NCBI GenBank assembly: GCA_004292955.1
Contig: RDXX01000081.1
Coordinates: 1-64,000, forward strand
DNA length: 64,000 bases
From: Oscillatoriales cyanobacterium
GTDB lineage: Bacteria > Cyanobacteriota > Cyanobacteriia > Cyanobacteriales > Microcoleaceae
Reading direction: 5' to 3'
Part shown: one piece after another, positions 25,446-52,635 of the stretch
Numbering within the stretch: the first letter of the stretch is position 1
How the letters are laid out: every line of letters starts with the position of its first letter
Program-made: the position numbers and the translations under genes
Notes under the pieces: generated by a model
What the model saw: only the letters and a program-made list of their open reading frames with translations
What the model was told of the DNA's origin: nothing
The model's database searches: none

Positions 25446-25519
25446 GGGACAGTAGTTCAATTGGTTAGAGCACCGCCCTGTCACGGCGGAAGTTGCGGGT
25501 TCGAGCCCCGTCTGTCCCG
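25446..25519 (+). tRNA. tRNA-Asp (GTC)
   Basis: The 74-nt gene folds into a standard cloverleaf. The acceptor stem is GGGACAG with CTGTCCC, the anticodon loop is CTGTCAC with GTC, the T-loop is TTCGAGC, and G is the discriminator base as usual for tRNA-Asp. CCA is not encoded. From 25474 onward the sequence is the attachment core of the integrated element, which restores the 3' end on integration. Confidence 0.97.
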
Positions 25520-25527
25520 TTCTCTCG
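25474..25527 (+). repeat. attL: 54-bp attachment core
   Basis: The 54 bp from the anticodon stem of tRNA-Asp to 8 bp past its end are identical to 52582-52635. The flanks diverge at once on both sides (TAGC here, AAAG at the other copy). This is the typical attachment site of a tyrosine integrase that uses the 3' half of a tRNA gene. Confidence 0.95.
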
Positions 25528-25602
25528 TAGCAAAGCTTTTAAAGTTTTGATAGATTTGTCGGATCTACCGCTAACGTAGTTTGCGCTCAAAATCCGCTCA
25601 AA

Positions 25603-26718
25603 ATGAATATTAATCCGTCAAAAGATAGGAAAGCGATCCGGCTTCAATTTACTGTTGAGGGCGCTAGGTTTTCGTTCTCGCCTTTGCCCGGTGGAAAATG
25701 GGAGAATAAGCGCGATCGGCAATTGGTCGCAGCGATCGCCACAAAAATCGAAAATGATATTCTTGCTGGAAATTTTGATCCATCCCTAGGAAGGTATCGC
25801 CACAAGTTATCTGCCGCTCAAACTCCGCTTCGGGTAAAAGCTAATCCCAAGATTTGCTGGCTTGAACTTTGGGATGCTTGGGTTGTTTCTCTTGACTTGC
25901 CAATTTCAACCGCAGCAGATCATTATGCTTGTGTCCGAGCCATGCTTGTAAAATCGGGAAATCCTTCGCTTGATAATACTGAATGGCTGCAAATTAGTGA
26001 GTTGGCTGCGAGCACGTTTAATCGCAGATTGTCTATGTTGCGATCGTGCTTGTTGTGGGCCGTAGAAGAGGGCTTGATTAAGCCAGCGGATAATCCTTTG
26101 AAAAGGGTTCGCTCTCGCACGGCAACAGAAGATGAGCGACAGCGATCGGACAAGAAAAAAGCGCCATTGTCAGACGCTGAAATCGAAAAAATATTAAATT
26201 ACGTCGATCGGGTCTATATCACTTACGCACCGTTTGTGCGATTTTTACTTTTTTCGGGAGTGAGGACTGGGGAAGCTGTCGGGTTAACTTGGGACAGTGT
26301 TGATTTAGAAAAGCGCCTGATTTTTATCAGGCAGTCGGTGTCTCGGCAGCGGGGGAAATACCAGAAAATTTGTAAATCTCCTAAGACCAAAGAATCTGTC
26401 CGCACTTTGAAGATGTCCGATCGTGTCTTTGTTCTCTTTAGCTCAATAATTACCGAGAATGCTTGTGGTCTAATTTTTAAAAGCCCCAAGGGACAAATTA
26501 TAGATCATGGCAATTTTCGTTCTCAATGTTGGATGCCCACATTATTGTTTTTGGATATTCCTTACAGAAAGCCCTACGCTACGCGACACACTCTTCTGAG
26601 CCAAGCCCTTGAAAGTGGCTTGTCGGTGCCACAAGTTGCTCAAATTGCTGGGCATCGCGACGGTAAAATGATCCTTCAGCACTACGGCCACGTTATAAAT
26701 CAGCCACAATTGCCTTAG
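25603..26718 (+). CDS. int: Tyrosine recombinase (integrase)
   Basis: This 371-aa recombinase has an N-terminal arm-binding region, a SAM-like core-binding domain (residues about 95-170) and a catalytic domain. Catalytic motifs are SGVRTGEAVGL (Arg), PYATRHTLLS (Arg; Tyr replaces the usual first His, as in other cyanobacterial relatives) and GHRDGKMILQHYGH (His and nucleophile Tyr). It probably recombines the 54-bp core. It lies 83 bp downstream of tRNA-Asp in the same direction, so in the integrated state read-through from the tRNA promoter could express it. It overlaps the next, convergent gene by 4 bp. Confidence 0.96.
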   Translation: MNINPSKDRKAIRLQFTVEGARFSFSPLPGGKWENKRDRQLVAAIATKIENDILAGNFDPSLGRYRHKLSAAQTPLRVKANPKICWLELWDAWVVSLDLPISTAADHYACVRAMLVKSGNPSLDNTEWLQISELAASTFNRRLSMLRSCLLWAVEEGLIKPADNPLKRVRSRTATEDERQRSDKKKAPLSDAEIEKILNYVDRVYITYAPFVRFLLFSGVRTGEAVGLTWDSVDLEKRLIFIRQSVSRQRGKYQKICKSPKTKESVRTLKMSDRVFVLFSSIITENACGLIFKSPKGQIIDHGNFRSQCWMPTLLFLDIPYRKPYATRHTLLSQALESGLSVPQVAQIAGHRDGKMILQHYGHVINQPQLP

Positions 26719-27158
26719 TGATAGTTAACCGAGAGTGGAATTGACTTGATGCCGGATTTTGTGATCGCCTCCATGCGATCGCAGAATCTCTCCCATCCCG
26801 AGAAATTTTTGAGCACGATGCACCCTGCGCTTCCCGGTGCATTAGCGTCAAAATGGATACCTAATTCGCTCCTGATATCGCCAGAGCTTGATACTGGGTC
26901 AGGTGTGATATGGAAAAAATACCCTTCTATTCCTCTTGTGGGGAGCCAATAAGGTACTGTCGGGATTTTGTACTCAAAGCCTGCCGGAATTGGCCCTTTT
27001 CCTCTCGCCCATTCATCGCCCGGTTGCTGCCACTGTGTGCATCCAGATGTCGCCAAATAATCAATAAATTTTTTGTCGGGGTAAGTCAATCTCAAGCTGC
27101 CGTAAATCAAGTCATTGGATGCGGCTAAAGTCATCGCAAAGGCGAGTGAATGGCTCAT
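26715..27158 (-). CDS. L,D-transpeptidase-like cell-wall enzyme
   Basis: This 147-aa protein has the pattern ELGIHFDANAPGSAGCIVL, with His102 and Cys113 placed like the catalytic pair of L,D-transpeptidase folds and the related phage-associated DUF5675 type. It would cut or exchange peptidoglycan peptides. The N-terminus is not strongly hydrophobic. It is the last gene of the leftward block, just after two small membrane proteins, which suggests a role in host lysis or virion entry. Sequence support is one motif, so the exact activity is uncertain. Confidence 0.6.
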   Translation of the reverse strand: MSHSLAFAMTLAASNDLIYGSLRLTYPDKKFIDYLATSGCTQWQQPGDEWARGKGPIPAGFEYKIPTVPYWLPTRGIEGYFFHITPDPVSSSGDIRSELGIHFDANAPGSAGCIVLKNFSGWERFCDRMEAITKSGIKSIPLSVNYH

Positions 27159-27169
27159 GTGGGACTCCG

Positions 27170-27352
27170 TTATTTTTGTAGGGGCGACGGAGCCAAAAAA
27201 GCTCCTATGACGGCGATCATGGTAATTATTAATTCAATTAAGCTGGCTGGAATTGGCTGCGCTTCTAATATTACAATTATCAGTCCTAGGCACGAAACGA
27301 AAGTGCAAAGGCATATGCAAAATAATGCAATACGTAGTGAGATTCTATCCAT
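27170..27352 (-). CDS. Small two-helix membrane protein (holin-like)
   Basis: This is a 60-aa protein from the ATG at 27352, which overlaps the TAA of the upstream gene (TAATG); a farther ATG at 27391 would add 13 residues. Two transmembrane helices (LRIALFCICLCTFVSCLGLIIVIL-like and LIELIITMIAVIGAFL) are joined by a short turn. Size and topology fit a class II holin. Position directly before the peptidoglycan enzyme supports that. There is no family signature, so holin is an inference. Confidence 0.55.
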   Translation of the reverse strand: MDRISLRIALFCICLCTFVSCLGLIIVILEAQPIPASLIELIITMIAVIGAFLAPSPLQK

Positions 27353-27654
27353 TAGTCTTTCCTGTTCTGGAATGTAATTTTGGAGACCCAATCGAGAATT
27401 TGAGCTATTTGTTCCCCTTGGAATTTCACCTGTTGAGCTTGCAGTTTCATTTGCTGCGCCATGTGTTCCCGTTGTTTAACTGCTTCCTTTATCTCTATTT
27501 CCCTTAATCGAATTTCTTCTAAGTGTTCTTTTCTTTGCTGTTTTCTGGCTTGCCAGAAACTTATTGACAATCCAAGAAGGGCAACTACCAGCCCAAAGAA
27601 AGCAATTACCGTGGTGGCAATATCTGCCTTGATTAGGTCAACGAGTTTCTGCAT
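27352..27654 (-). CDS. Membrane-anchored coiled-coil protein (spanin/holin-accessory-like)
   Basis: This 100-aa protein has one N-terminal transmembrane helix (TVIAFFGLVVALLGLSISF) followed by about 60 residues of charged coiled coil (KEHLEEIRLREIEIKEAVKQ and on). That topology matches inner-membrane spanin subunits and some phage accessory proteins. It overlaps the upstream gene by 17 bp and the downstream one by 1 bp, so the three are translated together. Confidence 0.55.
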   Translation of the reverse strand: MQKLVDLIKADIATTVIAFFGLVVALLGLSISFWQARKQQRKEHLEEIRLREIEIKEAVKQREHMAQQMKLQAQQVKFQGEQIAQILDWVSKITFQNRKD

Positions 27655-28015
27655 TTTGTCTCACGCTAGCAAGAGTCAAATATTCTTTTAAAACTACTGT
27701 TGTGTCAAGGAAAAGTAGGGCTGCTGTAGGTACTGACTTCACCAGTTCTTCATCTATCTGAAGAAATCTCGGAGGTGTTGAGCAAAGAGCTCCATTCCAT
27801 GTAAATGGGTAGTATTTGTCTTTCCCCCCGTCATATACCCCCCATCTTCTTAATCCAAACGGCTTGGCTTGCCAGTGCACCAAGCAAAAACTGCCTGCGA
27901 GGTGGAACTTGTCAATTATTGGATTGAAGTCCATCTTTAGCTCGAAGTCTGGGAGGTGTGGGTATGTTAGTTTTACCCGCCCTTTCTCTGTTTCTGCAAC
28001 TACAATTGGTTTCAT
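27638..28015 (-). CDS. Hypothetical element protein
   Basis: A 125-aa soluble protein that I do not recognise. It is beta-rich with many aromatic residues (FHLAGSFCLVHWQAKPF, then YYPFTWNGALC). It is the first gene after a strong hairpin at 28036-28075 and overlaps the coiled-coil membrane gene, so it may belong to the same lysis-like unit. Confidence 0.6.
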   Translation of the reverse strand: MKPIVVAETEKGRVKLTYPHLPDFELKMDFNPIIDKFHLAGSFCLVHWQAKPFGLRRWGVYDGGKDKYYPFTWNGALCSTPPRFLQIDEELVKSVPTAALLFLDTTVVLKEYLTLASVRQNAETR

Positions 28016-28035
28016 TTTTCTTGCTGACCATATTG

Positions 28036-28075
28036 ATTCAATGATGGCGAAATCCGTATTTCGCCATCATTGAAT
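28036..28075. terminator. 18-bp perfect hairpin between element genes
   Basis: ATTCAATGATGGCGAAAT at 28036-28053 pairs perfectly with 28058-28075 across a 4-nt loop. No long T-run follows. It lies between the 69-aa and 125-aa genes and could attenuate transcription, stabilise mRNA ends or bind a protein dimer. Confidence 0.6.
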
Positions 28076-28084
28076 TGGGAAGTG

Positions 28085-28294
28085 CTACGCGACTGGTTGC
28101 TCAGTCTGTCCTGTTTGTACTGGAGCATCAATCTGCTCGCCGACCTGATTGACTAGGTTTTCTAAAGCCATGATGGCTTCGTTAAGCGAGGCTTCGTTTT
28201 GCCCAGAACCCCCGGTTCTTTCGTCCACTTGTTTCGTGTAATTGAAGTTGGCAGAAATTGCGGCTAAAATTACCCGTGCGAATCTTGGTTCCAT
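28085..28294 (-). CDS. Small hypothetical protein
   Basis: A 69-aa protein with no recognised family. It is mostly helical with an acidic, Gln-rich C-terminus (ALENLVNQVGEQIDAPVQTG). It follows the 143-aa gene at about 74 bp spacing. Its tail resembles the helical tail of the 143-aa neighbour (LEDITEQLENLVDN), so the two may share an interaction surface. Confidence 0.55.
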   Translation of the reverse strand: MEPRFARVILAAISANFNYTKQVDERTGGSGQNEASLNEAIMALENLVNQVGEQIDAPVQTGQTEQPVA

Positions 28295-28368
28295 TGGTTT
28301 AACTGGGTTTGATTGTTTGCTTGACTGGCTATCAAACGTATCTTTGACGTTGACTAGCTTCGTTTATT

Positions 28369-28800
28369 TTAAGGTATTTGTTGTGGATTGTCCACTAGGT
28401 TTTCAAGTTGTTCGGTGATGTCTTCTAACTGCCCAATAATATCATCAAAGCCTGGGCTGCTATCGTCACTTACAGCGATGATTCGACAGTGGAATCCTGT
28501 CGAAGGGTTTATCAATAGGCGCATCGAAAACAGGTCGTTCCGATATCGAAAACTTGGAATCCGAATGAAGTCGATTGTGTTTATAGAGCCCTGAAAAGCA
28601 CACAGTCTTTCAATCAATGGTGCTTCTTGTATTCGAGAAAATAAAGCTACCGCTACCTCGACGAATTCCCCTGTTTCCACATATTCACCCGTGTCATCGG
28701 ACTGGAACACCAAGAACAATGTGTTCGGCGGAAACCAGTCCGTGTAAACCGGAGTAGCGGTGATGATTTGCGTGTCTATAATAACAGTAAGTGCAGGCAT
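28369..28800 (-). CDS. Hypothetical element protein
   Basis: This 143-aa protein is beta-rich for 120 residues (VIIDTQIITATPVYTDWF, FIRIPSFRYRNDLF) and ends in a short amphipathic helix. It is directly adjacent to the 137-aa gene (no gap). A structural role is plausible from composition and block position. No family is recognised. Confidence 0.6.
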   Translation of the reverse strand: MPALTVIIDTQIITATPVYTDWFPPNTLFLVFQSDDTGEYVETGEFVEVAVALFSRIQEAPLIERLCAFQGSINTIDFIRIPSFRYRNDLFSMRLLINPSTGFHCRIIAVSDDSSPGFDDIIGQLEDITEQLENLVDNPQQIP

Positions 28801-29214
28801 TTAGCCATAGTTTTCGCCGTGATAGGTCAAGCTCAAAGGGGATTTTGGTGATAAGAATGTGCTAGTAGAAGTATAATCGTACACCTCTTTTATTTGTTCG
28901 ATTTGATTGTTGTCCCCTGGCGCGTAAGGGACGACAATCTTAAAGTTACTCTCGCCAGTCTTGTTGTCAGGTGAGCCGAAACACGCGGAGATATGACGCG
29001 GTTCCGCATTGCTAAGACGGTCAATCGTTGGGTTGTTGGTTGCCACTTGACGGGCTAAGAGTGACGGTGTTACGGGAGTTAATTCGTCGCCATTCTCATC
29101 GTAGTATTGCCTTTGGTTAATTAAAGCGTCCTCTAAGTTGTCCTGAGTGTATCTAATCTTTAAATCTCTACCCCTGACCGTTCTGCGCGTCTTAATCTTG
29201 CTGGCGCTACTCAC
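28801..29214 (-). CDS. Hypothetical element protein, possibly structural
   Basis: This 137-aa protein has a basic N-terminus (KIKTRRTVRGRDLKIRYT) and a beta-rich rest including FKIVVPYAPGDNNQIEQIK. The N-terminal basic arm would suit nucleic acid or membrane contact. Its start overlaps the 85-aa gene by 4 bp. No family is recognised. Confidence 0.6.
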   Translation of the reverse strand: MSSASKIKTRRTVRGRDLKIRYTQDNLEDALINQRQYYDENGDELTPVTPSLLARQVATNNPTIDRLSNAEPRHISACFGSPDNKTGESNFKIVVPYAPGDNNQIEQIKEVYDYTSTSTFLSPKSPLSLTYHGENYG

Positions 29215-29468
29215 TCAGTCTCAACACCTACGATACAGACGTTTTCCACGCCGGACATCTCAGTATCATCCAAGAAATCGACGGCGGATTCGGCATCGTC
29301 AAACGACAGCAAATCGCACAAATCCGGCTCAATAGTGTTAGTTTTAGCTTCACGCAAATCTATCCAGTTAATAGAATTGCCCGACGCGCGCCGGACGGAT
29401 TGATTCGCCCCAAAAAAGGAAATGATACCATCCGAATTGCATTCGGTTTTGAGTATGATAAATCTCAT
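29211..29468 (-). CDS. Small hypothetical protein
   Basis: An 85-aa acidic protein with LLSFDDAESAVDFLDDT near the C-terminus. It overlaps both neighbours by 4 bp (ATGA junctions), so it is translated in sequence with them. No family is recognised. Confidence 0.55.
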   Translation of the reverse strand: MRFIILKTECNSDGIISFFGANQSVRRASGNSINWIDLREAKTNTIEPDLCDLLSFDDAESAVDFLDDTEMSGVENVCIVGVETE

Positions 29469-29791
29469 AAGTCCCTCAAGTTTAATTGAATGCGTTCTCC
29501 AATATTTTTATTGGTGACAATTTCTGGATTTTGGTTTATCTCATTCCAGAAATCAAGCCATTCCGGGGTTCCGGGTTGAAATGGATATTGGATTTTGTGT
29601 CCCTCCCCCGAAGCATCCCAGAGTAGCGCTTCCCTTGGTCGAACTGTTCGTGGCAAAGCGCAAAATCCTGCGCTTTGTGAAGAGTTGCTTTTGAATATTT
29701 CGGGCAAAAAAGACTCTTTCGCGAGCACCGATAACGATGCGAAAAAATAAGTTTTGCCCGTGTCCGTGACGTAATTTGCCCGGTACAGCAT
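29465..29791 (-). CDS. Hypothetical element protein
   Basis: A 108-aa protein with no recognised family. It contains TDTGKTYFFASLSVLAKESF at the N-terminus and a Pro/Trp-rich middle. It overlaps the 85-aa gene by 4 bp and the 306-aa gene by 1 bp. The position right after the largest leftward protein suggests an accessory to it. Confidence 0.55.
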   Translation of the reverse strand: MLYRANYVTDTGKTYFFASLSVLAKESFLPEIFKSNSSQSAGFCALPRTVRPREALLWDASGEGHKIQYPFQPGTPEWLDFWNEINQNPEIVTNKNIGERIQLNLRDL

Positions 29792-30711
29792 TACGGAGTA
29801 GCAGTAGGGAGAGCAGTGGGATTTTTAGAGGAAAATCGCTTGTCCCACTCCCCTCTGTATCCCAGGCACATTGTGTGCGGCACGGCTCGCAGCGCTAATC
29901 CACAAGCCCTAATCAATTCAGGATCGCGACTGCTCATGGGAACGAGCATTTCAGATTTTGCGGCCTTGATCTCTGAAGCCGCACCTGGGGTAGCCCCATC
30001 AGCTTTCTCGACAACTCTGCGGTTCTGTAGCATCACTACCCTGAATCGCCTGTGCTCGAAGGTCACTTGTCTGAATCCAGGGCATCTGGCACTTGACGTG
30101 TTGATTGGACCACCACTTGCAGTTAAGCAGTTGTTGATTGCTGTTGCGTACTGGGCATAAGGGATATTTCCTGCCAAGTTGGTAGCCATCTTGAAGGCTT
30201 TTGAAGCCATTTCAAACGAGCCGTCTGTTTCGTAGTTCATGCTACCCACATACGACGTTTCCTTCTCGCCTGCGTCGGTGTCCGTTATGGGTAGTGGCAC
30301 AGGAGGCAACACGCTTGATGTGGGATCTAGTAAATCGATGATATTCCGCCAAGTCTCACCTTCAAGTGATACGCAAATAACCCGAGCAATTTGATTTAAT
30401 TGGCCTGCAATAGTAGCCGACGCTGCTACTAAGTTAGTTTTGCTGGGAACAGGGATACTCACTGTTTTCCCCGCTTCAAACCAAAACTTAAGTTTTCTCG
30501 GGCTCCACGAGTATCCCTCTTCGTCTTCGCAGGGCACCCCCCTGGTATTGATCACGGTTCCGCCGACGGCGGCAATGATCGCATTAATCATTGCATCAGT
30601 GGTGCCGTCCGGTATCTTGAACGTGTATTTGTAATTAAAAGTTTGAGTCGCCGTACCCCAGTCAGGAAGATAATTGTTTCCCCGGAAGGTAATGCCTTCA
30701 GGCCTTGCCAT
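29791..30711 (-). CDS. 306-aa protein, candidate structural protein
   Basis: The largest protein of the leftward block. The first 170 residues are beta-rich (FNYKYTFKIPDGTTDAMIN, LKFWFEAGKTVSIPVPS), then a helical stretch at about 165-200 and a second basic beta-rich part (FRQVTFEHRRFRVVMLQNRR). There is no signal peptide or membrane helix. Size, place and lack of enzyme motifs make it a candidate capsid or base protein, but no homology is visible to me. It starts 2 bp after the 111-aa gene. Confidence 0.6.
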   Translation of the reverse strand: MARPEGITFRGNNYLPDWGTATQTFNYKYTFKIPDGTTDAMINAIIAAVGGTVINTRGVPCEDEEGYSWSPRKLKFWFEAGKTVSIPVPSKTNLVAASATIAGQLNQIARVICVSLEGETWRNIIDLLDPTSSVLPPVPLPITDTDAGEKETSYVGSMNYETDGSFEMASKAFKMATNLAGNIPYAQYATAINNCLTASGGPINTSSARCPGFRQVTFEHRRFRVVMLQNRRVVEKADGATPGAASEIKAAKSEMLVPMSSRDPELIRACGLALRAVPHTMCLGYRGEWDKRFSSKNPTALPTATP

Positions 30712-30713
30712 CG

Positions 30714-31049
30714 TTAGACCTCACTTGCTAATTCAAGTGCAACTGGCATCAGATCGAAGGCCAGATTGTACGACTGCCTTAACGTGCCAGGGGCTACATT
30801 AAGCCCGGAAGCGATCGACGGATTAGGCTTTGTAACCGTCGCTTTGGTAGGCCGCGCTGTTGGTGCTAGAGCCGTTAATGCTGAGTGAGTGCGATCGACA
30901 ATTTGCCGAATCACCTCCATCCCGTTACCTGTAGTGGCATTTGCCTCAGCCTCTGAGAGGCCGGGGAGAGATGTGAGAGGAATACGGATTTCGCCAGCGG
31001 CCGTGTCGAATGTATATCCAGCGAAAATCTCGTTCGGTGCAATTTGCAT
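30714..31049 (-). CDS. First gene of the leftward block, hypothetical
   Basis: A 111-aa protein with FAGYTFDTAAGEIRIPLTSL at the start and a helical middle. I do not recognise it. It begins the tightly packed leftward run of eleven genes. Its promoter must lie in the 31050-31250 spacer, next to the inverted AT-rich sites and the ribbon-helix-helix gene. Confidence 0.6.
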   Translation of the reverse strand: MQIAPNEIFAGYTFDTAAGEIRIPLTSLPGLSEAEANATTGNGMEVIRQIVDRTHSALTALAPTARPTKATVTKPNPSIASGLNVAPGTLRQSYNLAFDLMPVALELASEV

Positions 31050-31454: not shown

Positions 31455-31676
31455 ATGCAAAAAGAAAACAAAAGGCGCGCTCGAACTTATCCCAGCACTT
31501 TTTATGCGGGTGCCGGGGCGCAAGCAAATCCGCCCTCTTGTATTTCGCTTCGGAATTATTGCGCCAAGTATTTTTTGAGCAAGCCTCAGGTTTTGCGATT
31601 GCTCAAGAAAAAAGAGTTGTGCGCCGTAAGTTTCAAAAAAAAGCTTTTTATCGTTGACCAACTACCGGAGGAATAA
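31455..31676 (+). CDS. Small DNA-binding-like protein
   Basis: A 73-aa basic protein. The second half (ISLRNYCAKYFLSKPQVLRL then KKKELCAVSFKKKLFIVD) has the layout of MerR/excisionase-like helix-turn-helix domains: helix, recognition helix, then a wing. It could be an excisionase or a regulator. The next gene starts 6 bp downstream behind GGAGGAATAAG, so they are one transcript. Confidence 0.5.
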   Translation: MQKENKRRARTYPSTFYAGAGAQANPPSCISLRNYCAKYFLSKPQVLRLLKKKELCAVSFKKKLFIVDQLPEE

Positions 31677-31682: not shown

Positions 31683-32018
31683 ATGGGAGCACTTTACAAC
31701 CTTAACCCCACACAGTCTCAACAACAGCCACCGCTGTCTCGAAATGCAAAAACCCCCGTTACTGTCAGTGTGACTACAACGGCATCGGTTGCGCTTGCCG
31801 CTAACGCTAGCAGAGCTAATTTCTCCTTTTATAACGCAGGCCCCGCCACGGTCTTCATGCGCGAAGGATCGACCGTAACTCCCCTCCTTCACGAACAGCC
31901 AGTGCCTGCCGGGTATCACTATGATAGTGAGCCAAGTGCTTTTCGCTATACGGGGGCTGTGAGCTTGGTTACGGCGTCTGGGACGGCAAGTGTGATGATG
32001 AGCGAGGCCACTGTTTAA
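31683..32018 (+). CDS. Small beta-rich protein, candidate virion protein 1
   Basis: A 111-aa protein dominated by beta-strands (VTVSVTTTASVALAANASR, then FSFYNAGPATVFMREGS). The same plan (TVxVxT..L.AN..R.....V.VR.G) appears in the 120-aa protein at 34308. Such short jelly-roll-like proteins are common as capsid spikes or decoration. It has a strong ribosome binding site and its stop touches the next start. Function is inferred from fold-like composition only. Confidence 0.6.
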   Translation: MGALYNLNPTQSQQQPPLSRNAKTPVTVSVTTTASVALAANASRANFSFYNAGPATVFMREGSTVTPLLHEQPVPAGYHYDSEPSAFRYTGAVSLVTASGTASVMMSEATV

Positions 32019-32338
32019 TGGGGACAATTACTAACTTAAATAGTGGTGTAGCAGGTCTTCAATTTAAAGTTGTAAATACAACTATTCCTGCTACGGCGTC
32101 GGGTCAGACGGGTGTCGATCTCAGTCCGATTTTTGGCGCTGGCTTCGATTATTCGAGAATCAGGGCCGTAAGTGCAGTCGCTACTACGGGGCCTCTCCGT
32201 GTTTTTCCTGGAGGCATTGGTTTGCCAGGGCATAGTTACTTCCTGTCAGTATCGAATACTTTTCTTCTTGTTCGCACAACGACTGATTCTGCGTCGATCC
32301 TGAAGATACCAGTAAGAGTTATTATTTGGTATGAATAA
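32018..32338 (+). CDS. Small beta-rich protein, candidate virion protein 2
   Basis: A 106-aa protein with LQFKVVNTTIPATASGQTGV, then FSVS-like strands and VRVIIWYE at the end. No charged helices and no membrane segment. It overlaps the previous gene by 1 bp (TAATG). Together with its neighbours it forms a run of five proteins of 106-120 aa. Confidence 0.6.
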   Translation: MGTITNLNSGVAGLQFKVVNTTIPATASGQTGVDLSPIFGAGFDYSRIRAVSAVATTGPLRVFPGGIGLPGHSYFLSVSNTFLLVRTTTDSASILKIPVRVIIWYE

Positions 32339-32340
32339 TC

Positions 32341-32682
32341 ATGCCTTCTGAACCTTTATTCACAAACTTTTTCGGCGCCGGCGCAACCCAAACCGCCACT
32401 CAACTCATTATCCTAAAAAATGATTTGATTGCTCCAGTCGGTCTTGTTCCCAGCTACGATTTTACTCCTACTGCAAGCAACCGCAGTGAACAGTTGGCAC
32501 TCGCTTTAATGCTGCGGTGGCTGAGGAACCAAGACCAAAGTACAGATTCTCAATTTGTTATTAAGCCATTTGAACAAACCCTAGAATTTCGATTCAACAA
32601 ATGGCAGCGAAGGTATGTTAGTGAAATTGAGGTATTCCAGGATGATACTGTTTCCACATTCCCTAATCCCAATTTAATTTAG
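32341..32682 (+). CDS. Small paralogue A of a tandem pair
   Basis: A 113-aa protein. Its start (FTNFFGAGATQTATQLIILK) matches that of the next protein (LTSFFGATATQTAT). Both continue with a helix containing LALALMLRWL or LVTAILLRSW, then DSQ and a C-terminal end of the type PNPN-I. Tandem duplication is clear. Function unknown; structural role inferred from place. Confidence 0.65.
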   Translation: MPSEPLFTNFFGAGATQTATQLIILKNDLIAPVGLVPSYDFTPTASNRSEQLALALMLRWLRNQDQSTDSQFVIKPFEQTLEFRFNKWQRRYVSEIEVFQDDTVSTFPNPNLI

Positions 32683-32683
32683 T

Positions 32684-33034
32684 ATGGCGATCGATAAACC
32701 TCTTACTTCATTCTTCGGCGCTACGGCGACTCAAACAGCGACGACTGTAACCTTCACCAAGGCTGACTTGCGAAGCTTGCGGACTCCGCCAGCTTTTACC
32801 GCCCTAGCACCTCTCTTGATTAACACCGGCGAGAGTTTGGTTACAGCCATCTTGTTGCGCTCATGGGAAGAGCAAGATACTAGCCAGGATTCTCAACTGT
32901 CAATATTTGGACCAGAGGTTTCGCTGGTGGAAGTTGTCTCAGATGGCGTCGCGAAGCCTTTCGAGCAGTACGTTTTTCAAGTTCGGATTTTAGTGCCGCG
33001 AGGCGTGGCAATGCCGAATCCGAACTCTATTTAA
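32684..33034 (+). CDS. Small paralogue B of a tandem pair
   Basis: A 116-aa protein, paralogous to the gene 1 bp upstream by the shared FFGA-TATQTAT start, the EQDTSQDSQ/NQDQSTDSQ middle and the MPNPNSI/FPNPNLI end. The two have diverged strongly elsewhere, so the duplication is old and both copies are kept. Confidence 0.65.
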   Translation: MAIDKPLTSFFGATATQTATTVTFTKADLRSLRTPPAFTALAPLLINTGESLVTAILLRSWEEQDTSQDSQLSIFGPEVSLVEVVSDGVAKPFEQYVFQVRILVPRGVAMPNPNSI

Positions 33035-33060: not shown

Positions 33061-33747
33061 ATGGCAGCAGCAGAGCAACCGGTTTACGGTCAATACGATC
33101 CAGCGTCAGGTGGTTATACGGCGATCGGCGGGCCTCAAATTAATTCTATCAAGATGATAGGGACTGTGACATCGGGCCCTCCAATAATTATCAATCCAGA
33201 AACAGGGAAGCCGTATCCTCCTGGGTTTATCCCAAACGAACAAGCGAAAGGAACATTTGAACTGTGGACAATGGGGTCTAGTTTGGCTGAGAACAATAAG
33301 TTGCAAACTGCTCGGCTTCGTGAAATTACGAGGGCTGCGATAGAAAAAGGGATAAGACCTCATGAAGAGAAGCTTGTCAACGAACTCAATAAAGGTGTGG
33401 ATAGTTACGAGCAAGCTGTTATGACATTTGGCAATGCATTTGGCAAAGACCCCGGGAAAGCCGTCAGTAACTTGCTAGGTGGCGGCGCCGCTCAGTTAGC
33501 TGGAGGTGCGACGAAAATTGGAAGCCAGGCAATTCAGTCCGGCCAACAACTTGCAGGACAAGCCCTGAAAACTGGGCAGCAACTTGCAGGACAAGTTTCC
33601 GCATCTTTTGGTGGCGGGACGCCTCAGGCAAAGTTTAATAGTGGCAGTGGCGGTGGGATGACTTCGGCACTTGTTTCCAAGGCTCCTGAACGGGCACTTA
33701 CTGGCGGGACTGGGCCGGTATTTACTAGCGGAGCTAGGAGGAATTAA
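33061..33747 (+). CDS. Gly/Gln-rich protein with an amphipathic repeat
   Basis: This 228-aa protein has a beta-rich first half (PPIIINPETGKPYPPGF), a helix at about 85-130, then a low-complexity Gly/Ala/Gln part with a twice-repeated QLAGQALKTGQ-type unit and a Gly/Ser end. It could be an internal scaffold or a membrane-interacting virion protein. No family is recognised. It starts 26 bp after the previous gene and the next ATG directly follows its stop. Confidence 0.6.
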   Translation: MAAAEQPVYGQYDPASGGYTAIGGPQINSIKMIGTVTSGPPIIINPETGKPYPPGFIPNEQAKGTFELWTMGSSLAENNKLQTARLREITRAAIEKGIRPHEEKLVNELNKGVDSYEQAVMTFGNAFGKDPGKAVSNLLGGGAAQLAGGATKIGSQAIQSGQQLAGQALKTGQQLAGQVSASFGGGTPQAKFNSGSGGGMTSALVSKAPERALTGGTGPVFTSGARRN

Positions 33748-34311
33748 ATGGCGATCGATATGCCCGATCGCCTTTCTCAAATTGCAGCCAGAATCACTCC
33801 GGCAACTAGCAATCAGGAAGCGATTTTATATACCCCAAGCAACGCATCTGTACTCGGAACAAACATCAATTACCAAGGGCATATGGCGGTGATTCGAGTA
33901 GCCTGCTATCTCGATTCAGTACCTCCAACTTTTGCGCCGATGATCCTTGCTACCGATACGCTGGCACAGAAAGAGCAAAAGAATCAGATGTTTCGTGCAA
34001 ATCCCAAAAAAGGGCTGCTTGTTTCCTTACAAAATCCAAGCGGTCAAAACTTTGAAGTGGGAATGATTGACCTCTACAATGTGAAGCCAATTTTTCTTAC
34101 TGGGATTAACGAATTTTTCACTGATTTAGAATTCTACGGTATTAGGTTCGGTTGGAGAATCCATGCAATGGTAGTCGATCGAGGGCATGGATTGCTCCAA
34201 AATAATACCGGCGGACAGCAGAATGACTGGGTATCGATTACCGGATACGTCGTAGAGAAGTCGAGTTTTTTGCAAGACCACAACAATATTGTTTATAACT
34301 ATGTTGTATGA
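33748..34311 (+). CDS. 187-aa beta-rich protein, candidate capsid protein
   Basis: A soluble, beta-rich protein (HMAVIRVACYLDSVPPTFAP, LVSLQNPSGQNFEVGMIDLY, FYGIRFGWRIHAMVVDRG). It has no enzyme motif. Its size is that of single jelly-roll major capsid proteins in tailless dsDNA viruses, which makes it the best candidate in the rightward block, but this is composition and context only. It overlaps the next gene by 4 bp. Confidence 0.6.
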   Translation: MAIDMPDRLSQIAARITPATSNQEAILYTPSNASVLGTNINYQGHMAVIRVACYLDSVPPTFAPMILATDTLAQKEQKNQMFRANPKKGLLVSLQNPSGQNFEVGMIDLYNVKPIFLTGINEFFTDLEFYGIRFGWRIHAMVVDRGHGLLQNNTGGQQNDWVSITGYVVEKSSFLQDHNNIVYNYVV

Positions 34312-39747: not shown

Positions 39748-39752
39748 CGCTG

Positions 39753-40859: not shown

Positions 40860-40976
40860 ATCCGAGGCTTCTGCGGTGTCTACAGTCGCGTCAAGTGCTG
40901 TGTCTACGTCGCGTCAAGTGCTGTGTCTACAATCTCCACATCCGAGGCTTCTGCGGTGTCTACAGTCGCGTCTACA
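40821..40976. repeat. 57-bp repeat array with a frame-breaking base loss
   Basis: Units start at 40821, 40878 (24-bp partial), 40902 and 40958. The normal unit is 57 bp (19 codons); the unit at 40902 is 56 bp because GTCTACAGTCGCG is GTCTACGTCGCG there. That missing A puts the two flanking coding frames out of register. Confidence 0.85.
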
Positions 40977-44429: not shown

Positions 44430-44678
44430 ATGGTAAGTCAACTAAAAAATCAAGCAAATCTTCTAACACCTGTGTGGATTCGCAAAAGAGCCAACAAAAC
44501 TCAAAGGCAAATAGCCGTCGAGTTAGGTATTACTGAGTCTGTTATCAGTAAATGGGAGCGAGGTATTACCGTGCCTAGTCCCTCTCTGACTGATATTCCT
44601 AGGTATTGCCAGGCATATGATTGCACTCTTGAAGAGCTGATTGAGGCGTTCAGTAATATAAGTCGCAAACCCGCCTAA
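44430..44678 (+). CDS. XRE-family transcriptional regulator
   Basis: An 82-aa protein with a complete helix-turn-helix: IRKRANKTQRQIAVELGITE, SVISKWERGITVPSPS, and the trailing helices DCTLEELIEAF. It has no effector domain, so it works like a small Cro/CI-type repressor. It faces away from the leftward replication block and is followed by a bidirectional terminator. It is the likely switch between integrated and replicating states. Confidence 0.88.
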   Translation: MVSQLKNQANLLTPVWIRKRANKTQRQIAVELGITESVISKWERGITVPSPSLTDIPRYCQAYDCTLEELIEAFSNISRKPA

Positions 44679-47565: not shown

Positions 47566-47585
47566 AATTATGCTCTGCATAGTAT

Positions 47586-47614: not shown

Positions 47615-47624
47615 GTCTATACGA

Positions 47625-47663: not shown

Positions 47664-47686
47664 ACTCAAAGGCAAAAAGGCGAAAA

Positions 47687-48223: not shown

Positions 48224-48224
48224 G

Positions 48225-48401: not shown

Positions 48402-48403
48402 AT

Positions 48404-48607
48404 ATGTTCGGAAAAATATTGGATCTATTGCCCGCTGGTGTTGTCGAGCAGATAGGCAACGCGAGCTTCCGATCTTTAGCGGATAGAGGCGAAGTAGATA
48501 GTTGGTCTGTTTCTTACGAGCCCGAAGGTGAGATAGCGACAAAAGAGAGAAAGGAATACGAAAGAGAAAGAAGCACGGAAGTAAAACCAATCGAGGGACA
48601 GAAATGA
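48404..48607 (+). CDS. 67-aa hypothetical protein
   Basis: It starts at ATG 48404 (a TTG at 48398 is less likely) and overlaps the next gene by 4 bp. It is hydrophobic at the start (FGKILDLLPAGVVEQIG) and highly charged at the end (KERKEYERERSTEVK). A short amphipathic membrane contact is possible. Confidence 0.55.
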   Translation: MFGKILDLLPAGVVEQIGNASFRSLADRGEVDSWSVSYEPEGEIATKERKEYERERSTEVKPIEGQK

Positions 48608-49275
48608 TTACAAGTGGTATCTCTCGGGTTGTCGGTTACAATCCTATGTCGCCGGTTATCCGACAAAACTTAGGCGATATCGGTCTCGCCAAGGTAGCGA
48701 ATTGCACGGATGAAGAAGTTCACGAAAGTTCGGTTAATAAGAAGAAGTGGCAGCAGCAAGCCCGACGCTCAAAGATTTATGTTGCGAATCAAAAGGCGAT
48801 TTTGGATTGCATCAAAAGGATCGAAGAGCTTGCGCTGGAGCTTCTTGAATACGGATTTGATACAGATGAAAAAATAACGGGGCTTGTTGCCAAGGGCATT
48901 GAAGGGGGAGCCAAATATAAGGCTGCGGTACTTTACCGCAAGGAGCAAGCAAGGCTTTCTGTACTCAAAACCGAGGCTCAATTTGCTGCCGACATGGGAT
49001 TCGCGCAAGCGAAGACAGGCGGAGAAATCGGCTTGATAGCCGATCGCTACGGCATTGATATCAAGTTTCTCCAAGCTGGCTTTAAAACTCAGTCGGCCGC
49101 CTTAGAACCACAGCTTAAAGCCAGTGCGGATGCCAAAAATCAAGAGGCGATCGCCCGCCAGCAGCAAGAAGCTTACTGGAAAGGCGAAACCACTACTTCT
49201 GGAGGCCAAAAAACTTTGGGTGGCGGCTTGTTTGGCTCGATTTCTAAATCTTTGGCTGGATGGTTTAAAGTATGA
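48604..49275 (+). CDS. Helical element protein
   Basis: A 223-aa protein, largely helical (RIEELALELLEYGFDTDEKI, AARLSVLKTEAQFA-like), with a Gly/Ser-rich end and a C-terminal amphipathic segment (FGSISKSLAGWFKV). It overlaps its neighbours by 4 bp at both ends and precedes two membrane proteins, so it may assist their assembly. Family unknown. Confidence 0.6.
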   Translation: MITSGISRVVGYNPMSPVIRQNLGDIGLAKVANCTDEEVHESSVNKKKWQQQARRSKIYVANQKAILDCIKRIEELALELLEYGFDTDEKITGLVAKGIEGGAKYKAAVLYRKEQARLSVLKTEAQFAADMGFAQAKTGGEIGLIADRYGIDIKFLQAGFKTQSAALEPQLKASADAKNQEAIARQQQEAYWKGETTTSGGQKTLGGGLFGSISKSLAGWFKV

Positions 49276-49472
49276 AGTTTCCATTTTTTAGAGATCGCGA
49301 TCGCGAAAAGCTTGAGGCTTATCGCAGAGTCTTGGAAGCTTACGCTGACCCAAATAACTGGTCAAATGTCAGTTGTTTTGGACACATTAAACGCCGACGG
49401 TGGTGCGGTGGCAACGACGGCATGGATTTAGCTAAAAAAGTATTGGAGCAAGATGATGGACGGAACTCTTGA
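49272..49472 (+). CDS. 66-aa hypothetical protein
   Basis: A basic protein (FRDRDREKLEAYRRVLEAYA) with two Cys residues. It overlaps the previous gene by 4 bp and the membrane protein gene by 20 bp. Family unknown. Confidence 0.55.
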   Translation: MKFPFFRDRDREKLEAYRRVLEAYADPNNWSNVSCFGHIKRRRWCGGNDGMDLAKKVLEQDDGRNS

Positions 49473-49914
49473 AGGGTACGCAGCTTACGAGGACTGGGAG
49501 GCTCAGCAACCGAAACCACAAGTTGCCGAGCCGGGAGAAAAGCGGATCGCATTTTCTCGGAATGCTTACAGAGTAGCTCATTTTGGCTTGATAGCCAGTG
49601 GCACTGCATCCGCGGTACTTATTTTTAGAATGATTCCCTGGTTGTCGTTTGGCAGTTTTGCTATCCGAATAATTGCGACCGCGGTGGTTGGCAAGGAGGC
49701 TCTTTTTGGCGCGGACGACGATCGTCCTGGATATCAGGCGGCTGCCACCGCGATCGCTCTCGGCTCTGCGGCTGGTGAGTGGGATGCAATTTTGGCAATC
49801 TTTGGTGCTGTTGGTGACTTCCTCTCTTTGTACGGGGGGTCGATCGTGGTTGGGTTGTTGATGGTGTGTGTCCTTGTGGCGTGGCTGTGGGGAGGTCGCA
49901 ATGTCTCGACTTAA
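49453..49914 (+). CDS. Integral membrane protein
   Basis: A 153-aa protein with an acidic N-terminal 45 residues and three or four transmembrane helices (FGLIASGTASAVLIF, FAIRIIATAVVG, then IVVGLLMVCVLVAWLW). It overlaps the ATPase gene, so the two are likely partners in one membrane complex. Family unknown. Confidence 0.7.
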   Translation: MMDGTLEGYAAYEDWEAQQPKPQVAEPGEKRIAFSRNAYRVAHFGLIASGTASAVLIFRMIPWLSFGSFAIRIIATAVVGKEALFGADDDRPGYQAAATAIALGSAAGEWDAILAIFGAVGDFLSLYGGSIVVGLLMVCVLVAWLWGGRNVST

Positions 49915-51529
49915 GATTTCACTTGCTCTGCTTGCTGGTTGCGCTGGCTTTGTTCTTGCCGGCGCAAGCCTTCCGGTTGACACCCAACTAACGATTCGCA
50001 CCAAACTTGGCAAGCGAACTTATCCTCACTGGTTAGTCCAGCCCGATAGCAAGATTGTCAAAACTGAGGGCGCTTCCGGCTTGATTCGGCTGCTTGGTGG
50101 GTTAGCTAGCTTCGCTAGCTTTGGGGCTGCTCTACACTTCGCTGGCAGTGACGAACGCGAACAGCGGCTATTTTGGGCTGGACAGGTTGCCAGCGACGAT
50201 ATCCAGCAAAAAGAAAATCAGACAACGGCCGAAATCGGTGCAGGGGTTCGCCTCAAAAAATTACAACTTGAGGCGCAGGCAGATATCGATCTTTTTACTT
50301 TGCAGCTTCAGCAAAAATTCAAGGAGGCGATCGGATTTACTCCAGTGCCATCCCAGCCAGCGTTACCTCACGGTAAGCCGGGAACACTGGATGACATTAC
50401 AAATCCAGGTGACAAAATTGATGTCGGAGAACAAGTTAAAAGTGCGATCGAACCCGGTGATTCCCTGACTCAATCTTTGCTGAAAAGCCAAATCAGTAGC
50501 GCAGTTTTTGCAGGGTTTTTGAAGCTTATTGGAACCCCTGGATCGGGAAAGACTACTCTAACGAGCGCGTTGATTCGTTGTCGCATCAGTCGAGGACATC
50601 GATTGATAATTATAAACTCCCACAAGCGTAAATCAATGTACCGAGGAATTGAAAAATTCCTCATCAAAGGGACGAAGATTTACGGTATTGGTTTGGGTGA
50701 CAAGGAACGGGCGAAAAGCTTGCTGGATGGCTTGAATAAAATTCTTGAGATTTTATCCAAGCGATACGATGAATATCAGAATGATGATGAGGGAACTTAC
50801 CATCATTTTCCTATCACCTTACTCCTTGAGGAGATAGGTGAGTGGCAGCCTCTTTTGGCTTTAATCTTGCCGCCTACTGAGGTTGAAAATATCTTGCAAA
50901 CTTTTTGGCTAAAGCTTTTTATAGCGGCCAGGAAGGGAAAGGTTTTTCCTCTTGTTACAGCTCAGACTGATACTCAGGCAATGTTCAAGGCGAAAAATTT
51001 GTCGGAATTGTTTAAACAGTCCGGTGCTATTACCTTGTTGCTGACCGCCGTACCAGATAAGGACTCTGAAGACGGGTGGAAGCCTTCGGGGCAAGGCAAA
51101 CTTAAATCACCCAATTCTGTACCAATTGATGTTTCTATTCCTGATGCACGATCGCTGATTGACGATGTGGATCATTTTGGGGATTGCGAAATATTTCTCG
51201 AATCATTTGCTACAGATTATCCCACTGAGTCAGTGGTGGAGATTCCACCAGTCTCCACCACCTCTCCACCGCCTCTCCACCAACCTATTCACCACCTGGA
51301 ATCCTTGCTGCACCGGAAATACAACGCAGTCAACCCGATTCCGGAAAATTGGGAGTTTCCTGATCCAACGCAGTCATTGACCCCCGAAGTGCGTGCGGTG
51401 GTGGTTGCCTGTAAGCGTAGCGGACTATCTCAGAATGCTGCTATTTTGGCGATATGGGGGGTTGCTAAATCTGGTAGCGATAAGCGCTACGAGTCTGCTA
51501 GAAATCACTATCAATCCGTAGTTATTTAG
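49901..51529 (+). CDS. Membrane-anchored P-loop ATPase (FtsK/HerA-like, possible DNA packaging or export motor)
   Basis: A 542-aa protein from ATG 49901 behind GAGG, overlapping the previous gene; an ATG at 49868 is less likely. Two N-terminal helices (ISLALLAGCAGFVLAGASL and RLLGGLASFASFGAAL) anchor it. A coiled stretch follows, then Walker A GTPGSGKTT at 211-219, Walker B FPITLLLEEIGEW, and a sensor region PLVTAQTDTQAMF. A His/Pro-rich linker leads to a C-terminal helical domain (SGLSQNAAILAIWGVAKSG). The plan suits a DNA pump, as in membrane-containing viruses or transfer systems. No relaxase accompanies it. Confidence 0.75.
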   Translation: MSRLKISLALLAGCAGFVLAGASLPVDTQLTIRTKLGKRTYPHWLVQPDSKIVKTEGASGLIRLLGGLASFASFGAALHFAGSDEREQRLFWAGQVASDDIQQKENQTTAEIGAGVRLKKLQLEAQADIDLFTLQLQQKFKEAIGFTPVPSQPALPHGKPGTLDDITNPGDKIDVGEQVKSAIEPGDSLTQSLLKSQISSAVFAGFLKLIGTPGSGKTTLTSALIRCRISRGHRLIIINSHKRKSMYRGIEKFLIKGTKIYGIGLGDKERAKSLLDGLNKILEILSKRYDEYQNDDEGTYHHFPITLLLEEIGEWQPLLALILPPTEVENILQTFWLKLFIAARKGKVFPLVTAQTDTQAMFKAKNLSELFKQSGAITLLLTAVPDKDSEDGWKPSGQGKLKSPNSVPIDVSIPDARSLIDDVDHFGDCEIFLESFATDYPTESVVEIPPVSTTSPPPLHQPIHHLESLLHRKYNAVNPIPENWEFPDPTQSLTPEVRAVVVACKRSGLSQNAAILAIWGVAKSGSDKRYESARNHYQSVVI

Positions 51530-51544
51530 GGAGGCAAATAACAA

Positions 51545-51718
51545 ATGGAAGAAGGGTCGTTGACAAAAGATATTCAATGCCCGCAATGTGGATCGGTGGA
51601 TATTAAGTTCGACAAAGATTATGGATTTTACACCTGTAATGCTTGTGATCATGCTTGGGCTTATTCCAAGGATGACCCAGATTTTGATGAGCTTGATGAA
51701 GATATTGACTTAAATTAA
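51545..51718 (+). CDS. 57-aa zinc-ribbon protein
   Basis: It starts at ATG 51545, 15 bp after the ATPase stop, and ends at TAA 51718. CPQCGSVDIKFDKDYGFYTC then NACDHAW form a four-Cys zinc ribbon, followed by an acidic tail (DPDFDELDEDIDLN). Transcription-factor-like ribbons of this size often modulate RNA polymerase. It is too small to be noticed by length cut-offs. Confidence 0.75.
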   Translation: MEEGSLTKDIQCPQCGSVDIKFDKDYGFYTCNACDHAWAYSKDDPDFDELDEDIDLN

Positions 51719-51751
51719 CAGCGTAATTGCAAGGTCGCTCCTTGTTTCTTT

Positions 51752-52504
51752 ATGTTTGAGCGAAAGTTGAAATGGGGTATCCAAAGATATTTGAACCCGG
51801 TCACGACGAGGGGTTCAAGGAGTTCAGCCAAAACAATGATTATGAGATTGCTGAATGATGCGTCTGCAACAGATTTAATGTTGGTTCCTGGAATTCTGAA
51901 AGAATTTGAGGAGTTGCCTGCATGGCTTAAATTGCGATTCCAAAAAGGTTCCCTTTATCAAGACGAGGATCGAGTTTTTGGGTGGTGTAGGGATGATCAA
52001 ATTCAGGCAGTTGAGTTGCCTGTGTACTTGGATATGTTTTCTTACGACAATGGAAATGAGAATCGCATTGTTAAATATATTAGGGTTGGTGTATCAGACG
52101 AAGAAGGTTTTGCCCCCGCTATTGATTTACCTTTTGATGGAGTTCGTGTTGAAGTCCCTGTTGCCCCTGGTTATGATTTTGACTATACTTTTTTCACCAT
52201 GTGGGAGCACGGCTGGGCGTCACCTTGCGAAATTCAATGGAGCTGGTTTGAGAGACCTCGTTGCTCGGATCTAGATGGGTATGTGGTAGAACGATCGATC
52301 ATTCCTCATGGCTTTTGGAAAGCTTGGGAATGGTATCCAGATTGCTGGCGGGATTACTACGACAAACGTCCTGAGCTTTTTGAGGATGCTGAGTGGTGGG
52401 GTACCCCGATGCCGATTCGTCACGAGCCACCGAATGACCCCTATGCAGCGGTACTGGGTGGAGCAAATAAGCACGACGTTGAAATATTTTTTCTTGACTC
52501 TTGA
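51752..52504 (+). CDS. Trp-rich hypothetical protein
   Basis: A 250-aa protein with a basic N-terminus and many Trp/Tyr/Asp residues (FFTMWEHGWASPCEIQWSWF, FWKAWEWYPDCWRDYYDKR). No family is recognised. It is the last gene before attR and ends 77 bp inside it, the usual place for cargo. After excision it would lie upstream of the integrase gene in the same direction, across attP. Confidence 0.6.
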   Translation: MFERKLKWGIQRYLNPVTTRGSRSSAKTMIMRLLNDASATDLMLVPGILKEFEELPAWLKLRFQKGSLYQDEDRVFGWCRDDQIQAVELPVYLDMFSYDNGNENRIVKYIRVGVSDEEGFAPAIDLPFDGVRVEVPVAPGYDFDYTFFTMWEHGWASPCEIQWSWFERPRCSDLDGYVVERSIIPHGFWKAWEWYPDCWRDYYDKRPELFEDAEWWGTPMPIRHEPPNDPYAAVLGGANKHDVEIFFLDS

Positions 52505-52581
52505 CTTTTCGGTCAGGGTGAGATAGATTTTTTGTTGTGCAGGGACAGTTGAAAGCAGGCGAACACTTGATCTGGAAGTGT

Positions 52582-52635
52582 CGCCCTGTCACGGCGGAAG
52601 TTGCGGGTTCGAGCCCCGTCTGTCCCGTTCTCTCG
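52582..52635 (+). repeat. attR: 54-bp attachment core with tRNA-Asp 3' remnant
   Basis: Identical to 25474-25527 over 54 bp. It holds the anticodon arm to the discriminator base of tRNA-Asp (through 52628) plus 7 bp, without the 5' half, so it is not a functional tRNA gene. It marks the right end of the element. Confidence 0.95.

Follow-up and report, generated by a model that had tools for sequence, protein, structure and literature searches.

The window analysed here is a 64,000-nucleotide stretch of contig RDXX01000081.1 (positions 1 to 64,000, forward strand) from an Oscillatoriales cyanobacterium (GCA_004292955.1). A block of 27 kb within it (25474..52635) is integrated at a tRNA-Asp gene, and we read this element, with a probability of roughly 0.6, as the temperate provirus of an undescribed, tail-less lineage of cyanobacterial viruses. 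The reading is based on attachment (att) repeats and empty sites, a jelly-roll model for one protein, the wide occurrence of that marker and a conserved large neighbouring gene. It is also based on minor-tail-type domains and an endolysin in relatives, a holin-like protein, circular and tandem relatives, CRISPR (clustered regularly interspaced short palindromic repeats) spacers, and the lack of terminase, portal, relaxase and type IV secretion system (T4SS) families.

Integration site and empty sites

The element is bounded by two perfect 54-bp direct repeats with a spacing of 27,108 bp. A single tRNA was detected in the window, tRNA-Asp(gtc) at 25446-25519, and its 3' part falls in the left repeat. 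Named proteins of near-identical sequence, for example a Microcoleus MAG protein at 98%, suggest Microcoleus as the host.

25474..25527, + strand: attL, 54-bp repeat inside the 3' part of tRNA-Asp
52582..52635, + strand: attR, 54-bp repeat identical to attL

Both flanks of the element were joined into a 493-nt probe, which was searched in 29 genomes of the genus, including the window's own. The probe was unbroken in six of the 29 at 80-87% identity (over 1-493 in G277, G200, G371, G326 and G219, and over 1-487 in G308), and in the window's own genome it matched as two separate pieces only; the tRNA-Asp site is therefore vacant in congeners and occupied here. The sibling genome G001 carries an element at the same tRNA-Asp with matching repeats on both sides. 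The 27-kb block is a real integrated element, apparently intact, and the tRNA-Asp element with perfect att repeats that had been proposed from the sequence alone (the sequence-only reading) is borne out by the repeats and the empty sites.

Candidate capsid protein and structural blocks

Two divergent blocks of genes hold the structural candidates (lengths in amino acids, aa).

27638..29791, - strand: block of small proteins of 125, 69, 143, 137, 85 and 108 aa, conserved in relatives
29791..30711, - strand: 306-aa second candidate structural protein, modelled
30714..31049, - strand: 111-aa conserved small protein, 67-83% identity in G001, G228 and G264
31455..31676, + strand: 73-aa protein at the start of the forward block, conserved as far as G136
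31683..33034, + strand: small proteins of 111, 106, 113 and 116 aa, conserved in relatives
33061..33747, + strand: 228-aa structural candidate, homologs in G001, G264 and G136
33748..34311, + strand: 187-aa protein with a predicted single jelly roll, capsid candidate and marker of the family, 65 homologs, modelled
34308..35647, + strand: 120-aa and 342-aa proteins, matches in G001, G228 and G264
35648..38038, + strand: 796-aa protein with two predicted membrane segments and 30-bp repeats

Structure models were made for two proteins. That of the 187-aa protein (pLDDT 87.1) has a single jelly-roll-like fold, and its PDB neighbours by fold are rich in viral shell proteins, with nucleoplasmin-like rows also among the matches; the VIA-align rows omit the P23-77 and SH1 capsid proteins, an omission that carries no weight. 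The protein is 55-91% identical within the near subgroup, and the model makes it a likely candidate for the capsid protein. The model of the 306-aa protein consists of two beta-alpha runs and is alpha/beta, not a (double) jelly roll; no solved fold matched it well. The structural check suggested in the sequence-only reading thus gave the predicted jelly-roll-like fold for one of the two proteins and neither a jelly roll nor a good match to a solved fold for the other.

At the level of sequence, the 187-aa profile gave chance matches only against PDB chains (best E 0.4). The jelly-roll and 306-aa profiles were compared in hhalign with VP16 and VP17 of P23-77 and VP7 and VP4 of SH1, with probabilities of 0.1-0.3%, a level at which a shared fold may lack sequence signal. 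Against P2, P3, P31, P5 and P1 of the PRD1/PM2 group the probability was at most 0.4%. A comparison with the capsid proteins of PRD1, P23-77 and PM2 had been suggested earlier, and a link to them is not supported by these profile comparisons.

Of the 43 open reading frames (ORFs) of the window, 33 had tblastn matches in G001 (a count that precedes inclusion of the last 8.8 kb of its contig), 17 in G264, 14 in G228 and seven in the more distant G136, where two further matches appeared with profiles. The G264 and G228 contigs end at the structural blocks, with the remainder of both elements outside view. By these matches, the structural blocks are conserved among relatives. The 125-, 143-, 137-, 85- and 108-aa proteins have matches in G001, G228 and G264, and the 69-aa protein in G001 only. 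The 113- and 116-aa proteins are paralogs, and the 111-aa protein of the forward block resembles the downstream 120-aa protein; its profile also matches the jelly-roll ORF of G303 (E 1e-6). The 73-aa protein, which has no PHROG match, is in our own reading a helix-turn-helix protein. The 796-aa gene contains 7.7 copies of a 30-bp repeat (36731-36960), in agreement with the repeat protein described before; in its G136 homolog, inspection by eye shows another short repeat in a comparable location.

A wider family in cyanobacteria

The near-subgroup jelly-roll profile matched in nine of 388 genomes of the order. A second profile (A4) was made from it by adding five distant jelly-roll domains found in the order search, and matched in 54/388 genomes of the order (39/149 genera), 34/388 of the class and 17/339 of the phylum draw. 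The three draws overlap and include the window's own genome, and the order draw includes genomes used for the profile. The weak A4 hits were tested by the presence of a Pro-rich neighbour, which is not a target of the jelly-roll search, in 20 stretches from 16 genomes hand-chosen from the order and class hit places. Each of the 20 fetched stretches holds a jelly-roll ORF and also a Pro-rich protein; the Pro-rich proteins form a single cluster of 570-705 aa (split over two ORFs in L099). The Pro-rich gene is at most 2,682 bp from the jelly-roll gene in 20/20, and downstream on the same strand in 17/20. Among 29 loci compared, the Pro-rich cluster occurs in 24 and a cluster of proteins, most of them of ~500 aa, in 20.

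The Microcoleus/G136 subgroup and the wider family share the jelly-roll protein, small beta proteins, a YkuD-like enzyme, XRE regulators, integrases and, in part, the ATPase. Replication genes vary among relatives (PrimPol, DnaB, VapE and D5-like). G303 encodes a 143-aa protein with a collagen-like stretch that matches phrog_3285, minor tail protein (E 8.3e-12), and G136 a protein that matches phrog_3639, minor tail protein (E 4.2e-7), for which a family of unknown function scores better; in our own reading these minor-tail-type proteins would be receptor-binding fibre tips. G081 encodes an endolysin with VanY and peptidoglycan-binding parts (phrog_2649, E 1.3e-30).

The G303 relative (L022:1-8000) is compact, apparently ~8 kb, with a short integrase, YkuD, jelly roll, Pro-rich protein and minor-tail-type domain; no replicase or ATPase was seen in it, and it is perhaps a satellite or remnant.

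The 796-aa C-terminal domain, cut out, matched the C-terminal domain of the ~500-aa protein with an hhalign probability of 83% (reversed control 0.4%), and the two domains are probably related. The whole 796-aa protein reached 32% with its like-positioned counterpart in the wider family and was not accepted as a homolog; nor were the 306- and 111-aa proteins (at most 4%), which are alike in position alone.

Nothing in INPHARED matched the 187-aa protein, the ATPase, the ~500-aa protein, a Pro-rich protein or a distant jelly-roll protein in tblastn. In IMG/VR no relative was confirmed for the 187-aa protein, its alignment, the ATPase, the ~500-aa protein or the distant jelly-roll protein, in scans that rely on short exact peptide patterns and that distant relatives may escape. 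In PLSDB the 187-aa protein had no match, and the ATPase had a single weak one (E 4e-3), on a plasmid of Nostoc. No description of the element family was found in the literature, judged from titles and the starts of abstracts, with subscription journals and most preprints outside the search. The family is apparently an undescribed, widespread lineage.

Circular and tandem relatives

Two deposited circular plasmids hold the jelly-roll, Pro-rich and ~500-aa families: unnamed14 of Tolypothrix PCC 7601 (20,757 bp) and pMIC7113.08 of Allocoleopsis franciscana PCC 7113 (20,803 bp). Both are annotated mostly with hypothetical proteins, and unnamed14 also has a transposase gene. A G047 contig of 18,455 bp has an exact terminal repeat of 141 bp, which we take as expected for a circle assembled by a k-mer method. 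In G372 two copies of an element lie 18,006 bp apart and are at least 99% identical per 200-bp step from 401 to 18,200. Equal-scoring jelly-roll genes recur 18.0, 20.3 and 21.5 kb apart in G372:C81 (L095/L096), G379:C186 and G087:C35, as in tandem lysogens; the spacing was confirmed in sequence for G372:C81 only.

Plasmid pHT582-2 of Nostocales HT-58-2 (CP019638.1, L150; 15.6 kb, with ParA/ParB) has only the C-terminal part of the ~500-aa protein in common (2566-3390). With no jelly-roll hit it was set aside as a relative, and the overlap perhaps reflects module exchange between these elements and ordinary plasmids.

CRISPR spacers against the element

The element gave many short BLAST matches in the 29 genus genomes, from which 12 sites were picked for spacer-like lengths or several matches per contig. 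Nine of the 12 are CRISPR arrays, with 323 spacers in eight genomes. Over their full length, 13/323 spacers match the element at 80% identity or more and 16/323 at 75% or more; a host flank of equal length and one triplet-shuffled copy of the element gave 0 at either threshold. Because the arrays were selected for element matches, the rate does not describe the population, and some spacers have overlapping targets (in PrimPol and among the repeats of the 796-aa gene). The excess over the controls is nevertheless clear in these sequence comparisons. The targets are integrase, structural, replication and ATPase-region genes.

Near contig position 6229 of G001:C184 (L139), a spacer matches the integrated element of G001 itself at 33/33 bases, so that G001 is a lysogen with a self-targeting spacer.

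Integration, replication and putative lysis genes, and families not found

Of the 43 ORFs called, 42 were scanned with Pfam and PHROGs (E<=1e-3); a 69-aa ORF at 48398 was left out.

25603..26718, + strand: tyrosine integrase, 371 aa; PF00589 E 1.9e-15, PHROG integrase E 6.7e-46
26715..27158, - strand: putative lysin of YkuD type (L,D-transpeptidase fold), 147 aa; weak YkuD match, E 0.022
27352..27654, - strand: holin-like protein, 100 aa; phrog_4237 E 4.6e-5, one membrane segment predicted from hydropathy
38290..39816, - strand: PrimPol replication protein, 508 aa; PF09250 E 1.3e-23
44430..44678, + strand: XRE-type regulator, 82 aa; HTH_3 E 1.9e-12 and repressor matches, assigned to this ORF by clustering and sequence

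The integrase, PrimPol and XRE regulator of the sequence-only reading were recovered with these matches, and no ribbon-helix-helix Pfam match was found among the 42 ORFs for the second regulator that it had named. Its lysis-like trio receives some support for two members, the YkuD-like and holin-like proteins. The 147-aa YkuD-type protein has homologs in G303 and G047, and one of 109 ORFs from six relatives matches YkuD at E 8.1e-5.

The 42 ORFs matched no family of terminases, portals, HK97 capsids, tape measures or tails in Pfam or PHROGs, and no relaxase or T4SS family in Pfam; these absences are at sequence level, and folds without sequence signal may escape in ORFs that have no model. The same holds for the 109 ORFs of the six relatives, in which Pfam gave no tail, terminase, portal, relaxase or HK97 capsid family. 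The first 25 of their 63 PHROG families are regulators, primases/polymerases, integrases, an excisionase and families of unknown function. The 109 come from 128 ORFs of at least 70 aa; of the 19 others, six were scanned with Pfam and two with PHROGs only, while 11 short ones went unscanned, as did two G081 ORFs crossing fetched stretches. The absence of terminase, portal, tape measure and relaxase claimed earlier is upheld within this scope, and the genes named in advance as grounds for giving up the proposal (terminase, portal, HK97 capsid, relaxase) did not appear.

A membrane-anchored ATPase with exchanged motors

48604..49914, + strand: 223-aa protein and 153-aa membrane protein (hydropathy) upstream of the ATPase; like-placed genes in relatives
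49868..51529, + strand: 553-aa membrane-anchored FtsK/HerA-like ATPase, 28 homologs; weak generic P-loop matches

The Walker region of the ATPase resembles FtsK/HerA-type motors, and against PDB chains by sequence it gave chance matches only (best E 0.055). In hhalign its motor reached 78% with PM2 P9 over 118 columns and 3% with PRD1 P9; the 84% with the P23-77 ATPase covers only 34 columns around the P-loop, and SH1 gave 1.1%. A weak TrwB row (E 0.022) was also obtained. The membrane-anchored P-loop ATPase of the earlier description is confirmed, though its family matches are weak and generic.

Ten of 22 aligned homologs are 56-70% identical to the window protein in the N-terminal membrane part and 17-26% in the motor, and most of these ten have a clearly different P-loop. 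The C-terminal tail of P0091 is 86% identical and its motor 22%; in P0093 the motor is 50% and the N-terminal part 19% identical. Recombination at both motor borders would be the simplest reading of this mosaic. In G001 the corresponding neighbours enclose a motor protein that is distinct yet related (hhalign 97% for the motor). Among the ORFs of the tandem 18-kb element of G372, which looks complete, none carries a standard P-loop; a variant form occurs in its 977-aa replicase. Since relatives exchange the motor and this tandem element lacks a standard P-loop ORF, the motor does not count as a core gene. A 179-aa motor-less protein beside the integrase in G372 was considered as an ATPase without its motor and dropped (hhalign at most 0.4%).

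Genes placed like those of the 223- and 153-aa proteins precede the ATPase in G001 and G081, and the 153-aa profile matches G081 (E 1.8e-4). We read the 223-aa protein as a coiled coil.

Comparison with known systems

Simuloviridae (SNJ1) are temperate viruses whose circular dsDNA genomes, 16-19 kb in size, persist as episomes (PMC12642351), and an FtsK/HerA-type packaging ATPase is described for single-jelly-roll membrane-containing viruses (PMC8328091). With Simuloviridae and Matshushitaviridae (P23-77) the element has in common a small jelly-roll protein, lysis genes (P23-77 record) and perhaps an FtsK/HerA-type ATPase. It differs in having a tyrosine integrase with PrimPol/DnaB/VapE rather than RepA rolling-circle replication, in a family size of 18-28 kb and in an ATPase that is not core. 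It differs also in the lack of profile homology to VP16/VP17 and VP7/VP4, P23-77 and SH1 having been compared directly and SNJ1 by description only. By analogy, the element would work like single-jelly-roll temperate viruses such as SNJ1, yet it is no assigned member; it is not filed under Helvetiavirae/Singelaviria because capsid profile homology to P23-77 and SH1 was not found.

Corticoviridae and Tectiviridae (PM2, PRD1), Odin and FLiP are likewise small, and like them the element has no recognised tail genes. It differs from PM2 and PRD1 in that no double jelly-roll protein was found by profiles (hhalign at most 0.4%) or in the 306-aa model. The Odin and FLiP groups lack a packaging ATPase (PMC5894146) and so offer a precedent for the absence of a motor; the string 'cyanobacteri' does not occur in the main text of that paper.

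Charybdis are marine circular elements with a single-jelly-roll protein, some of them integrated beside tRNA genes of marine group II archaea (PMC12324425). Compared by description only, they resemble the element in circular forms, jelly-roll protein and tRNA integration. They differ in their other key protein, a two-domain Greek-key protein, and in being found mostly, almost only, in vesicle fractions; 'cyanobacteri' is absent from the text of that paper. Cryoconite phage-plasmids and satellite phage-plasmids are small circles with integrase and primase, and their inferred hosts include cyanobacteria; group 8 is described without phage structural genes and several other groups carry terminase (PMC4490671). 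They are set apart here by description, and overlap is possible.

Prophages of Caudoviricetes share tRNA integration, integrase, XRE repressor, lysis genes and, in relatives of the element, minor-tail-type domains, and differ by the terminase, portal, HK97 capsid, tape measure and tail families missing from the 42 ORFs. An integrase, a PrimPol or VapE/D5-type replicase and a regulator are typical of satellites of the phage-inducible chromosomal island (PICI)/P4 type and of actinomycete integrative and conjugative elements (AICEs). The element shares all three and, compared by these features, differs in its own structural blocks and lysis proteins.

Proposed life cycle and rival explanations

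Integration occurs at tRNA-Asp by the tyrosine integrase, as seen in the repeats and the empty congener sites. On induction the element would be excised as a circle and replicated with PrimPol. Particle proteins would come from the two divergent blocks: the shell would probably be built from the 187-aa jelly-roll protein, the 306-aa protein would be another shell component or lie inside, and vertices, spikes or decoration would be formed by the small beta proteins together with the 228- and 342-aa proteins. DNA delivery may fall to the 796-aa protein, which has predicted membrane segments, and host lysis would be the task of the YkuD-like and holin-like proteins. As a helper module and not a core one, the FtsK/HerA-like ATPase would translocate DNA, either into the particle or through a membrane.

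Two points weigh against a tail-less provirus: neither the PRD1 and PM2 nor the P23-77 and SH1 capsid proteins show profile homology to the proteins compared, and the seemingly complete tandem 18-kb relative without a standard P-loop ORF leaves some probability to the satellite and vesicle explanations. A satellite dependent on a helper phage, tailed or otherwise, with integration, replication, decoration, fibre and lysis of its own and a borrowed capsid and packaging motor, is unlikely. VapE and D5-like replicases in relatives and PrimPol here would suit it, such replicases being present in satellites too, as would the compact G303 relative of apparently ~8 kb without ATPase and the tandem element just named. 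It is opposed by the large conserved structural blocks and lysis proteins that the elements carry themselves, by the lack of any recognised terminase or capsid family and by sizes of 18-28 kb. 

In AICEs an FtsK/TraB-type DNA translocase alone gives transfer. An AICE-like conjugative or cell-to-cell element, whose ATPase pumps double-stranded DNA between filament cells and whose beta proteins are surface structures, would account for the tRNA integration, the integrase, PrimPol and the membrane-anchored motor with its conserved C-terminal tail. It is improbable because the tandem element has no such motor and G001 has one of another type, because relatives carry an endolysin and minor-tail-type domains, and because relaxase and T4SS families were not found. 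We consider slightly less probable still a shell-less element carried in membrane vesicles, with membrane proteins as the lining of the lipid vesicle and the jelly-roll protein as a spike or surface component. Membrane proteins are predicted in the two elements checked, no dedicated packaging motor would be necessary, and nucleoplasmin-like rows occur among the fold matches; Charybdis, with a single jelly roll and partly tRNA-integrated, is a parallel from vesicle fractions (PMC12324425). Many small proteins in two conserved blocks speak against vesicles, and 55-91% jelly-roll identity in the near subgroup would suit a lattice protein better than a spike. Of the alternative first offered, a new temperate tail-less virus lineage or a new satellite type, what is supported is a new temperate virus-like lineage without tail or conjugation genes that extends beyond one genus, more probably a virus than a satellite or a vesicle element.

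The provirus reading may be extended, tentatively and at somewhat less than even odds, to a virus lineage that is widespread and ranks at least as a family. It would have a jelly-roll shell unrelated in sequence to the known capsids tried and a second protein of non-PDB fold, would exist integrated in tRNA genes and as deposited plasmids, and would package without a motor of its own or with swapped membrane-anchored motors. If the provirus reading is right, about one in seven sampled genomes of the order (54/388) carry the marker of a provirus family missing from the searched phage records, viral contigs and protein families, and two or more of the sequenced 'plasmids' of known strains are viral genomes. 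Cyanobacteria would then have tail-less temperate viruses of their own, with an uncharacterized shell protein testable in culturable strains, and the relatives would form a natural series in which exchange and loss of the DNA motor by a virus could be studied.

Remaining features

40904..42682, - strand: 592-aa protein; parts match phage families of unknown function, phrog_11705 (E 5.7e-10) and phrog_464 (E 2.4e-8)
51752..52504, + strand: 250-aa protein adjoining attR, homolog in G001

The 592-aa gene ends, and the 368-aa gene starts, within an 80-bp tandem repeat (40815-40972; two copies, 97% matches), which gives the two genes a stretch of sequence in common. PADLOC matches were RmrA (E 1.7e-4) and HTH_VI (E 8.3e-7) only. 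Palindromes of 28 bp lie at 38049-38076, 45534-45561 and 45730-45757, two of them near-identical (core TGTCCCA...TGGGACA) and the third at 75%. They are possible operators or terminators, and matches to them are present in the G001 element too.

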